A stretch of 43,132 bases of DNA. Source: Tychonema bourrellyi FEM_GT703. Lineage in GTDB: Bacteria; Cyanobacteriota; Cyanobacteriia; Cyanobacteriales; Microcoleaceae. The position numbers and the translations under genes were made by a program. This document shows, one piece after another, positions 4,542 to 42,328 of the stretch (its first letter is position 1; each line of letters starts with the position of its first letter). The notes below the pieces were generated by a model. It was not told the origin of the DNA. It saw only the letters and a list, made by a program, of their open reading frames with translations, and did not search any database. The stretch covers positions 1-43,132 of the forward strand of contig NZ_NXIB02000011.1 in the NCBI RefSeq assembly GCF_002412335.2, in the 5' to 3' direction.

Positions 4542-4787
4542 TGAGATATTGCACCATTCTCAATTAGCCTTTTATGAACAGGCAAGATGCCTGTTCCACA
4601 AGAAAATAGAATTTTTGTGGAACAGGCCGGACAGCCTGTTGCACAAGATGCCTGTTCCACAAGAAAATAGAATCTTTGTGGAACAGGCATCTTGCCTGTT
4701 GCTGACACAAGATGCCTGTTCCACAAGAAAATAGAATCTTTGTGGAACAGGCATCTTGCCTGTTGCTGACAATGGTGCAAGATATCA
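4542..4787. mobile_element. Repeat-module MITE-like element, copy 1 (three palindromic modules)
   Basis: The ends are near-complementary: TGAGATATTGCACCATT at 4542-4558 and AATGGTGCAAGATATCA at 4771-4787. Inside are three copies of a roughly 65-bp module in which GCAAGATGCCTGTTCCACA and its complement flank a short AT-rich loop. A GATTAAA direct repeat flanks the element (4534-4540 and 4788-4794), consistent with a target-site duplication. A second copy with the same ends lies at 27050-27362. Open frames across it are by-products of the repeats. Confidence 0.75.
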
Positions 4788-27049: not shown

Positions 27050-27362
27050 TGAGATATTGCACCATTCTCAATTAGCTTTTTATGAACGGGCAAGATGCCC
27101 GTTCCACAAAAGAATTTATTTGTTGTGGAACAGGCATCTTGCCTGTTCTTGAGAATAAAGAATTTATTTGTTGTGGAACAGGCATCTTGCCTGTTCTTGA
27201 GAATAAAGAATTTATTTGTTGTGGAACAGGCATCTTGCCTGTTCTTGAGAATAAAGAATTTATTTGTTGTGGAACAGGCATCTTGCCTGTTCTTGAGAAT
27301 AAAGAATTTATTTGTTGTGGAACAGGCATCTTGCCTGTTCTTGAGAATTGTGAAACATCTCA
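27050..27362. mobile_element. Repeat-module MITE-like element, copy 2 (48-bp modules)
   Basis: The same left end as copy 1, TGAGATATTGCACCATTCTC (27050-27069), faces an imperfect complement GAGAATTGTGAAACATCTCA (27343-27362). The 9-bp direct repeat AGCTAAATA flanks it at 27041-27049 and 27362-27370, a probable target duplication. Inside, a first palindromic module is followed by further 48-bp units containing GTGGAACAGGCATCTTGCC; the period is a multiple of three, so several frames stay open by chance. It begins just after the bioU stop. Confidence 0.8.
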
Positions 27363-27527
27363 GCTAAATAAAACTAATATTCACTAAATTGAGTACACAA
27401 CCTAATATATATTCAATTTACTAAGATAGGGTGATGGGTTAATCACCGATATTTAACTGAGCAATAGGATCGGATAAGTTCAGGTATTCTGTCACTAATT
27501 CACGCCTACACCAATTGAGGAAAAACC

Positions 27528-28234
27528 ATGACAACCCTGCTAATTCCAACCCAAAGCGTTCCATTGACGATCGAGCTCCCTGCGATCGAACCAATGACTG
27601 TTGAACAGTTCTATCAATTCTGTCTAGCCAATGGCGATTTGAGAATCGAACGTACCGCCAGTGGGGAAGTGATCGTTATGTCACCAGCTTTTTCGGATAC
27701 AAGTAATCGCAACGGTAAGATTTCCCTACAACTTGCGAACTGGGCAGAACAAGATGGCACAGGTGAAACGTTTGACTCCAGTGCAGGCTTTACCCTGCCC
27801 AATGGAGCAACCCGCTCCCCCGATGCCTCATGGATTAAACTAGAGCGCTGGAATGCCTTAACTGAAGAACAAAAAGCCTCATTTGCACCGATTTGTCCAG
27901 ACTTTGTGATTGAATTACGGTCTTCTAGCGATACTCTCAAAGGATTGCAAAAAAAGATGCAAGAATACAGCGGTTCCCACTGCTATGCGGTACAGTCAAA
28001 AACTCTAAAATAACATAACCTGGGTTGGCTCGTAGCTGTTACTGTACCTCATAAGAGCGGGAACCGCTGTATATTGACAACGGTGTATCACTCGGCTTGT
28101 TGATCGATCGCAAAAACCGAAAAGTTTACATCTACCGTCCCGAAAAAGAACCGGAAATCTTGGATAATCCCGAAACAGTGAGCGGCGATCCAGAGTTAAC
28201 AGGATTTGTCTTACGGATGGCCAAAATCTGGTGA
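27528..28234 (+). pseudogene. Uma2-family (DUF820) nuclease gene disrupted by a MITE
   Basis: The reading from 27528 has the Uma2 features: EPMTVEQFYQFCLANGDLRIER, RSPDASWIKLERW, PDFVIELRSSSDTLKGLQKKMQEY. It then enters a 102-bp inverted-repeat insert and stops at 28013. Removing the insert and one copy of the TA duplication rejoins ...KMQEY-IDNGVSLGLLIDRKNRKVYIYRPEKEPEIL... to a TGA at 28232-28234, a normal full-length Uma2 ending in MAKIW. Uma2 proteins have a PD-(D/E)XK nuclease fold and are very numerous in cyanobacteria. The restored 3' end overlaps the convergent Uma2 gene by 24 bases. The intact parts suggest recent insertion. Confidence 0.85.
27968..28069. mobile_element. 102-bp MITE inside the Uma2 gene
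   Basis: Termini CAGCGGTTCCC and GGGAACCGCTG are perfect inverted repeats, and a TA dinucleotide lies on both sides (27966-27967, 28070-28071). TA duplication is the mark of IS630/Tc1-mariner transposition, so the element is probably mobilised by such a transposase elsewhere. Subterminal arms (GGTACAGT/ACTGTACC) extend the hairpin. Confidence 0.85.
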
Positions 28235-39779: not shown

Positions 39780-39889
39780 CTTAAAATAATAATAAATTGC
39801 CTCTTCGGGATTTACGCACGCCGAGTCAAAAACCTGCTGGTTGAGCCCTTCGACTACGCTCAGGATAAACTGCATCGAAACCAGTTTTT

Positions 39890-39917
39890 TCTTCCTTCTT
39901 CCTTCTTCCTTCTTCCT
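39890..39917. repeat. TCTTCCT heptamer array, 4 units
   Basis: Four exact TCTTCCT units precede the TusA-like gene by a few bases. The same heptamer recurs inside rsgA at 40795-40820. Confidence 0.9.
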
Positions 39918-39925
39918 TCCGCCAT

Positions 39926-40213
39926 ATGAATTCAACATCGAAAATTGAAAATCTCCAATCCCCAGATGCTCAGCTCGATCTGCGGGGTACACCCTGCCCG
40001 ATCAATTTTGTCCGTACTAAACTGCGGTTGGAGCAAATGGCTCCAGGATCAGTTTTGGAGGTTTGGCTGGATGCTGGGGAGCCGATCGAACAAGTACCTG
40101 ATAGTCTAAAAATGGAAGGCTACCAGATTCTTGAAACTCAATTAGTGACTTCTGATGATAATTCGGGCTTTTTTGCGATGAAAGTGCAGCGACCAGAACA
40201 GGAAATAGCATGA
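39926..40213 (+). CDS. TusA-family sulfurtransferase-like protein
   Basis: The 95-residue protein is a SirA/TusA domain: LDLRGTPCPINFVRTKLRLEQMAPGSVLEVWLDAGEPIEQVPDSLKMEGY. The conserved Cys (CPIN, about residue 25) would carry persulfide sulfur; classical TusA has CPxP, and CPIN is seen in the cyanobacterial group. Its stop overlaps the rsgA start by four bases (ATGA), so the two are translated together. The pyrimidine-rich heptamer array occupies its ribosome-binding region. Confidence 0.85.
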   Translation: MNSTSKIENLQSPDAQLDLRGTPCPINFVRTKLRLEQMAPGSVLEVWLDAGEPIEQVPDSLKMEGYQILETQLVTSDDNSGFFAMKVQRPEQEIA

Positions 40214-41395
40214 GCCGGGATTCTTCCTTGATTACGGGTACTGTTGTGGCTGTCCAAGCTAACTTCTATCAAGTCAGGTTAGATCCAGATGTCAGCACTG
40301 ATGGGGAAAATCCTCTTTTAGCCGATCGTCCAATTCTCCTGTGTACTCGCCGCACGAGACTGAAAAAAATTGGTCAACAGGTGATGGTGGGCGATCGCGT
40401 GGTGGTAGAAGAACCCGACTGGAACGATCGCAGGGGTGTCGTTTCTCAAGTTTTTCCCCGCCAAACAGAACTCAACCGACCACCTGTAGCTAATGCCGAT
40501 CGCATTCTCCTGGTTTTTGCCCTCACCGAACCAGACTTAGACCCCGCATCATTAACTCGGTTTTTAGTCAAGGCCGAATCTACCGGTTTAGAGGTGAGTT
40601 TGTGTCTCAACAAATGCGATTTGGTCACGGATGAGGATTTGGTACAGTGGCGCGATCGGCTTAAAGGATGGGGATATGATCCCATGTTTATTAGCGTCCG
40701 TAGCGGCTTAGGAATCTACGAGGAAGCCACCAATGACCGTCAAAATGAAGTTTCTGCCACAAACCCAAATTCATCAGATAAAATCGATAGCTCCCTTCTT
40801 CCTTCTTCCTTCTTCCTTCTCTATCCAAAGTCACCTGCAAGGCAAAATAACGGTAATTTGTGGGCCTTCAGGGGTCGGTAAGTCCAGCTTGATCAATCAA
40901 CTGATTCCGGCGCTGAATCTGCGAGTGAACGCTGTTTCCGGCAAACTCGGCCGCGGACGACATACTACTCGCCACGTAGAATTGTTCGATCTCCCCGGTG
41001 GCGGACTTTTGGCTGATACTCCAGGCTTCAATCAGCCGGCACTTGAATGCGATCCGTCCGAGTTACCTGCATATTTCCCGGAAGCTCGTCAGAGGCTGGC
41101 TTTGGGTAGTTGCCAGTTTAGCGACTGTTCGCACCGAAGTGAGCCTAACTGTGTCGTGCGGGGTGATTGGGAGCGCTATGAGTATTACTTGCAGTTTCTC
41201 TCTGAGGCGATCGTCCGCCAGCAACAAGAGCAAAATTCTAGTAGTGCGGAGGCGAGTTTGAAGCAGCAAACTAAGTCGGATGGTACGCAGCAATACGAAC
41301 CGAAGCTGCAAACTAAAAAATATCGCCGCTCTTCCCGTCGTGTTCAACATCAGTCACTGCAAGATATGTGTCAAGAGGATTTAGATCGGGTTTGA
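40210..41395 (+). pseudogene. rsgA: Ribosome small subunit GTPase RsgA, out of frame at a heptamer array
   Basis: Two frames hold the halves of one RsgA. The 40210-40881 frame has the OB-fold and the G4 motif NKCD (residues 134-137) up to ISVRSGLGIYEE. The 40733-41395 frame has G1 GPSGVGKSS, G3 DTPG, and the zinc motif Cys-Cys-His-Cys (FSDCSHRSEPNC). The circularly permuted order G4-G1-G3 is that of RsgA/YjeQ, which checks 30S subunit maturation. Between the halves lies a TCTTCCT-type array (40795-40820); losing one 7-bp unit would join both into a 392-residue protein without a stop. So this is a broken, phase-variable or frameshift-read gene, or a sequencing slip. About 30 residues here are not family sequence. 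Confidence 0.85.
40795..40820 (+). repeat. CTTCTTC heptamer array inside rsgA, 3.7 units
   Basis: Three CTTCTTC units plus CTTCT lie exactly where the rsgA frame changes. The same heptamer array is found 900 bases upstream (39890-39917). Confidence 0.88.
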
Positions 41396-41530: not shown

Positions 41531-42328
41531 GTGAATATTCAAGAACTGTTTGAAAAAGGCGGCCCCGCCATGTGGCCCCTGTTGGTGTTATCGATTCTAT
41601 CTGTAAGTACAATTATCGAGCGTTTGTGGTTCTGGGCGAGCCTCCTCACCAAGGAAAAGCAAATAGTCAACCGTATCCTCGATGCCGCTCGCAGCGACTG
41701 GGGCGCGGCCAACGAGATTGCTAGACAAGCTAGCCGACAGCCGATCGGACGATTTTTATCTGCACCTCTGCGACTGTACAATCCTGAACCAGAATTATTT
41801 CGACTCGCACTAGAAGCCGCCGCTGATGAAGAGTTGGCTTCTATGCGCCGTGGAGACAAAGTATTAGAATCGGTGATCGCTCTAGCGCCTTTGTTGGGCT
41901 TGCTGGGAACTGTTTTGGGTTTGATTAACTCCCTGAGTTCGATCCGGCTGGGTGATATCGGGACCTCGGCAACTACTGGGGTGACTTTGGGGATTAGTGA
42001 AGCGCTGATCACTACAGCGACGGGAATGGTAGTAGCAATTTTTAGCTTGACATTTTATCGCATCTTTCAAGCTTTTTTGTTCAATCAAGCCAAAATTTTT
42101 CGCAAGGCTGGAAATGAACTGGAATTGCTCTACAGGCAATACTGGCCTACGGCTAACGCTCAGGGTCGATCGGCTGCTGAGGCAGAATATGGCAAGTCTT
42201 CCTTTGGTTCAGATAGGTTAAACAAGCATTCCTGGAATTCTCAACCAGAATCAGGAGAACGAAATCGGGAGCCGAAACCGAAATTGAAAGGTTCCGATCC
42301 AGATGTTGATTCAACTTCCAACAATTAA
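41531..42328 (+). CDS. exbB: MotA/TolQ/ExbB proton channel protein
   Basis: The 265-residue protein has three membrane segments (about 14-30, 112-135, 155-180) and the family core [25 protein letters not shown] with [23 protein letters not shown]. With ExbD it converts the proton gradient into motion, powering TonB- or Tol-type envelope processes. It starts with GTG at 41531; the C-terminal 50 residues are polar and disordered. It is followed after 14 bases by the exbD gene. No tonB-like gene is seen in the window. Confidence 0.9.

Follow-up and report, generated by a model that had tools for sequence, protein, structure and literature searches.

A core ribosome-assembly GTPase gene of a filamentous cyanobacterium, broken in frame at a heptanucleotide array

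Why should rsgA, the gene of a core GTPase of ribosome assembly, lie in two pieces in different reading frames, and what has a seven-base tandem repeat at their junction to do with it? The window (the whole analysed stretch of 43,132 nt) encodes dnaJ, a tusA-like gene, rsgA, exbB and exbD in this order, as identified by Pfam matches. On the forward strand, the tusA-family gene (39926..40213; PF01206) lies directly 5′ of rsgA, its stop and the rsgA start at 40210 overlapping by four bases, and the exbB-type gene (41531..42328; PF01618) follows 3′. Between them, and on the same strand, the 5′ ORF of rsgA (ORF1, 40210..40881, 223 aa) encodes the N-terminal part and the G4/G5 half of the circularly permuted GTPase (PF03193 1-97, E 5.1e-20; NF008932 12-178), and the 3′ ORF (ORF2, 40733..41395, 220 aa as listed) the G1-G2-G3 half with the C-terminus (PF03193 99-173, E 2.1e-30; NF008932 173-358). 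The two frames are one apart and jointly cover PF03193 almost without loss, in the permuted order G4-G5-G1-G2-G3; these profile matches bear out the preliminary description of this DNA, which had placed the G4 half and the G1/G3 half in different frames. ORF1 contains G4 (NKCD), and ORF2 contains both G1 (GPSGVGKS) and G3. Residues C306, C311, H313 and C319, which are invariant in 52 RsgA proteins and presumably have a role in zinc binding, are present in ORF2. The family cut-off for a single-frame protein (NF008932/PRK12289, 483 bits) is reached by neither half, their scores being 255.4 and 324.2 bits. The search for another rsgA, which had been proposed as a check, found none over this cut-off in the organism's own genome (92.5% complete).

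The frames part at a CTTCTTC array (40794..40820, forward strand; TRF period 7, 3.9 copies, 100% match) of three full units and a partial one, which is where the switch point had been suspected; that the frame of rsgA breaks at this array is confirmed. Its unit of 7 bp lies within the coding sequence and is not divisible by three, and its number of copies reaches the threshold for a heptanucleotide simple sequence repeat as worded in an excerpt of PMC2651432 (7-bp unit, at least three uninterrupted copies). All six frames of the array are open, each giving LLPSSFF or EEGRRKK in some rotation. The array therefore has no stop of its own, and the flank decides where translation ends: in the frame of ORF1 a stop follows 19 residues beyond the array, and in the third frame one would follow after 9. 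The ORF1 stop (40879-40881) sits inside the DNA that codes for G1 in the other frame, and no ORF1 stop is found between the array and the start of G1; as listed, the two ORFs overlap over 149 bases, the ATG of ORF2 being at 40733.

The window belongs to a genus represented by 29 genomes, its own included; among records that carry a name, those closest to it are from Tychonema, Microcoleus and Oscillatoriales. In the sister genome (locus L009, genome G007) the array has five full units against three in the window, which makes exactly 14 bp (two units) more; its flanks align with few changes and rsgA is one open frame of 399 aa; that a gain of two units would open the frame had been calculated. 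A protein search with the sister gene, of which the best 120 of 3,457 matches were considered, returned the sister's own protein (P0001) and, among the matches listed, five others with a five-unit linker (P0002, P0003, P0004, P0006 and P0007), one of which, P0003, comes from Tychonema bourrellyi B0820. The loss of one unit had been calculated to give an open frame of 392 codons, and a protein of just this length exists: P0005 (392 aa, on a contig of 10,099 bp) has linker residues that fit two units, and it is identical to the window in 194 of 195 residues before the array and in all 189 after it. It bears the source mark "-" given to the window's own proteins, although the window lacks that one-frame gene, and it may derive from a record closely related to that of the window. 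With P0003, too, the window agrees in every residue after the array.

The comparison with sister strains that had been called for thus gives different unit counts at this site, three (window) and five (sister) being read from DNA and those of P0002 to P0007 deduced from residues; protein databases favour open alleles, so that these counts do not measure how frequent shut alleles are. Judged from the sequences, two and five units appear to be open alleles and three a shut one, in keeping with the frame arithmetic, the two-unit allele being known from protein; close relatives are, in other words, polymorphic in unit number, with open and shut alleles among them. The shut state was seen at the DNA level in one genome, that of the window. 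Among the proteins fetched in a search with the N-terminal half (best 120 of 2,164 matches), none besides ORF1 itself ends like ORF1. Of three short N-half matches that were inspected, P0122 (207 aa, ending LLPSSFLFQHPI) lies on a contig of 1,123 bp and may represent either the end of that contig or a further array allele that is truncated; the other two, P0124 and P0126, stop within linkers that have no array.

The frame break at the array, the open five-unit gene of the sister and the open proteins fitting two or five units together support as the best reading that copy-number slippage shut rsgA here, recently and in a manner reversible in principle; we regard this as likely, with a probability of roughly 0.6. 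A cyanobacterial heptanucleotide repeat would have settled in a disordered, length-tolerant linker of the protein; slippage of the seven-base repeat during replication would then have turned an open rsgA into the three-unit state, and could undo it. The shut state may go back to one recent event, or open and shut cells may coexist within a population. With 3k+2 units the gene would be open and its product would merely have a longer or shorter LLPSSFF stretch, while with any other number translation would end just beyond the array. The predicted product of 223 aa would be devoid of most of the P-loop, of G3 and of the C-terminal domain and should not be a working GTPase, and three-unit cells are predicted to form their 30S subunits without RsgA. 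Several points speak against slippage, among them that a single genome was seen shut in its DNA. Moreover, three to four units are few beside the heptanucleotide tracts of Haemophilus influenzae, most of which have 6 to 38 according to passages of PMC2651432, and typical phase-variable genes encode surface proteins, whereas RsgA has a housekeeping role.

The linker in which the array sits (DNA at approximately 40705..40861, forward strand, as delimited by the G4-to-G1 spacing and by a low-confidence segment in the model of the sister protein) connects G5 to G1. From G4 to G1 the genus group has a spacing of 61-103 residues (22 loci at 88-98% identity, of which 21 were parsed, the remaining one having an altered G4), other loci one of 44-48 (57, of which 38 were parsed by pattern and 19 were not). 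In the 106 proteins parsed among the best 120 listed, the linker has 23-92 residues of very different content, and the array motif is present in eight of them. The predicted structure of the sister's RsgA (mean pLDDT 76.6) matches solved RsgA structures, as does the protein itself; residues 173-193 and 195-206 of the model are below 50, and the array codes for residues 196-207. In this model the array thus sits in a linker predicted to be disordered, which is longer in the genus, and it appears to accommodate every length by which the frame is preserved. The RsgA linker of a different genus in the family (genome G037, L168) has 9-bp GED-rich repeats and a gap of 100 N; G037 was considered as a second shut genome and rejected on account of this gap.

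Heptad arrays are not peculiar to rsgA. The window holds nine perfect ones of at least 21 bp, and the one in rsgA is the only one to overlap an ORF of at least 100 aa; the overlap of array and gene is more than chance. Another CTTCTTC array (39889..39919, forward strand; TRF), between dnaJ and tusA, has no counterpart in the sister. An 18-mer of the rsgA array has 152 matches in the organism's own genome, overlaps counted, a number on which the control with the backwards pattern says nothing because CTTCTTC reads the same backwards; the 18-mer is present in all 29 genomes of the genus. Seven array regions of the window were looked up in the sister, and the six that could be compared all differ in span, the one in rsgA alone differing by whole units with nothing else changed. 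A survey of 20 array loci (21 arrays) of the own genome, which were the first listed places and not a random choice, and which were scanned for spanning ORFs of at least 120 aa, found a single locus inside a Pfam-supported gene: ribBA (L132, C44; DHBP synthase/GTP cyclohydrolase II), which is open in frame and has its heptad array near 980-1012, on the opposite strand, in a linker that follows the cyclohydrolase domain. This array contains one N in the assembly; among the genomes of the genus the ribBA linker is variable in both length and content, and many of them have EEGRRKK-like stretches there. At another of the loci (L133) an array precedes the likely later start of a phycobilisome gene, and L128 (895-1299 on C39 of the own genome) has a short ORF, by its looks a gene remnant, which continues into a heptad array and has some similarity, at a score below the Pfam cut-off, to a portion of a release-factor (RF-1) domain.

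How long has rsgA been broken, and can the organism do without it? A gene free of constraint should accumulate more replacing than silent differences. Between window and sister there are 18 silent and 7 replacing differences in the 194 codons before the array, and 18 silent and 6 replacing ones in the 190 codons after it; silent differences thus prevail in both halves, which argues that the break is recent and that constraint had acted on the gene until a short time ago. Of the 29 genus genomes, 27 encode RsgA in one frame and above the cut-off, and in a family-wide sample 52 of 59 genomes pass (27 of the 59 are from the genus); those below are G000, G010, G037, G033, G055, G057 and G060. In G033 (L173) rsgA looks frame-broken upstream of G1, and no heptad array was seen there. 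Genome G010 (7.1 Mb, 99% complete) has dnaJ and tusA, and the stop of tusA is directly followed by the end of a TnpB-type transposon (PF07282; L176, C32, 1-222), at the place where rsgA starts in relatives, and then by the end of the contig. In this genome rsgA, exbB and exbD gave no match, while the control, the sister genome, matches all three. Possibly this block of genes is really lost from G010, or it lies on a missing contig. Going by G010, members of the genus may be able to do without rsgA. Escherichia coli without RsgA, as described in passages of PMC3669203, grows slowly, retains 17S rRNA and is salt tolerant. Two genomes of the genus have an additional, weaker RsgA-like match that stays below the cut-off, G008 (C350:6365-7132) and G021 (C111:35386-36258); the match in G021 contains a stop.

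The explanation that best withstands the evidence after slippage is that the unit count is wrong in the assembly, and that rsgA of the organism itself is open, its array having two or five units; we hold this to be a possibility of some weight, though an improbable one. Arrays are prone to misassembly, as suggested by the single N in this genome's ribBA array and by the gap of 100 N in the RsgA linker of G037; moreover, the product of a nearly identical gene, P0005, is open, and rsgA is intact in 27 of the 29 genus genomes. However, the array stretch, with about 32 bp, is shorter than usual reads, and ambiguous bases are absent from the window. The sister has 32 ORFs of 120 aa or more, and 18 of them, including some antisense ORFs that are not genes, find a match in the window; 15 of the matches are in one frame. 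The other three are split: rsgA at its array, a gene in which the window has 104 additional bp, and a fragment of dnaK, from which 40 bp are missing in the sister. No other frame change of the window was found among the 18. These findings favour a real three-unit state, which they do not prove, arrays being special. As to the two other split matches themselves, the 104 bp (27966-28069), which have no counterpart in the sister, disrupt a gene of the window that runs from 27528 onward and has about 200 codons, and in the sister (L179) dnaK, 40 bp shorter than in the window, is frame-broken.

More doubtful is a selected contingency switch, in which the array would turn RsgA on and off within a population, a slow-growing or stress-tolerant off state being favoured at times. 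In favour of it are the unit not divisible by three, the presence of open and shut alleles and the polymorphism of close relatives, and also the phenotype of E. coli, which, going by passages of PMC3669203, grows slowly upon loss of RsgA but tolerates salt. On the other hand, the units are few and a single genome is shut, chance suffices because arrays turn over everywhere in the genus, and 98 of the 106 parsed linkers of the relatives listed are not flagged for the array motif. It is unlikely that ribosome assembly is phase variable in the Microcoleus/Tychonema lineage, with fast-growing RsgA-on and slow, stress-tolerant RsgA-off cells or filaments. If open and shut cells occur together in a mat, the capacity for translation would be a trait that can be switched; even without switching, the site would show how heptanucleotide repeats found throughout a genome get into coding linkers, where they put core genes at risk of a loss that is reversible.

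The preliminary description had also offered a +1 frameshift site. Full-length RsgA would then be made by ribosomal frameshifting within the array, whose repeated CTT and TTC codons, together with the overlap of the listed ORFs over 149 bases, could be taken to suggest it; yet 27 of the 29 genus genomes encode RsgA in one frame and need no shift, no stop codon is present from the array to the start of G1, no stable structure was found downstream or at the overlap (z-score +1.44), and the number of units varies among relatives. What marks programmed +1 frameshifting, that is, a conserved recoding site with a stop or stimulator and split orthologues, is not seen here either, the array motif being present in 8 of 106 parsed linkers among the matches listed; we consider this proposal very improbable and do not uphold it. 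Least credible of all is that the halves are made as separate polypeptides and jointly form a split RsgA: the break does lie between G5 and G1, the junction created by circular permutation, ORF2 has its ATG at 40733, and a C-half match of another taxon (P0235, 213 aa, on a contig of 21,665 bp) starts with M, but that ATG is inside ORF1 without a coupling stop, no other two-gene RsgA was found in the 29 genomes of the genus, and of the five C-half matches read, four have no start codon at their beginning and give the impression of genes cut off at the end of a contig.

Returning to slippage as the preferred reading, its ingredients have precedents. Heptameric repeats are abundant in cyanobacteria, according to excerpts of PMC4692102 and PMC4679880; the same excerpts place them in intergenic regions and describe them as suppressed in the middle of genes, whereas the array in rsgA is mid-gene and critical for the frame. 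In other respects, namely the perfect tandem unit of 7 bp, the many loci per genome and the turnover between sisters, the rsgA array is like them. In H. influenzae, as passages of PMC2651432 have it, heptanucleotide tracts occur inside ORFs that have a frameshift: (AATTTTG)14 lies in hmw1a of strain PittAA, and AACAACC, repeated 13 or 8 times, in a homologue of HI1369. Phase variation is doubted there for a short octanucleotide tract of 1, 4 or 6 copies. The principle, gain or loss of a 7-bp unit that shifts the frame, is the same; the tracts described there are longer and reside in genes for surface proteins or iron uptake, unlike the three full units in a ribosome-assembly gene of a cyanobacterium. 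In the open-licence literature, no coding heptanucleotide switch of a cyanobacterium was found by title or abstract, and nothing was found that combines phase variability, ribosome assembly and tandem repeats. As far as these searches show, the mechanism is already known (frame switches by heptanucleotides of 8 to 14 units in ORFs of H. influenzae, in the passages cited), and the gene and the phylum are new: the alleles of two, three and five units sit mid-gene in a core ribosome-assembly GTPase of a filamentous cyanobacterium, while the printed cases concern a host-adapted bacterium.

With regard to the proteins and repeats involved, both halves in the window match the profiles of RsgA (YjeQ, YloQ), the circularly permuted GTPase, from which the genus differs by its expanded, repeat-bearing G5-G1 linker and the window by its broken frame. 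The heptanucleotide repeats of cyanobacteria referred to above go by the names STRR and LSSR. In Microcoleus sp. CAN_BIN18, a metagenome-assembled genome (L014/L107), G4 of RsgA reads NKCY in place of NKCD, and the gene is otherwise open. Finally, two longer tandem repeats of the window, at 4583-4771 and 27109-27393 (64 bp and 48 bp), have a GTGGAACAGGCATCTTGCCTGTT-like stretch in common.
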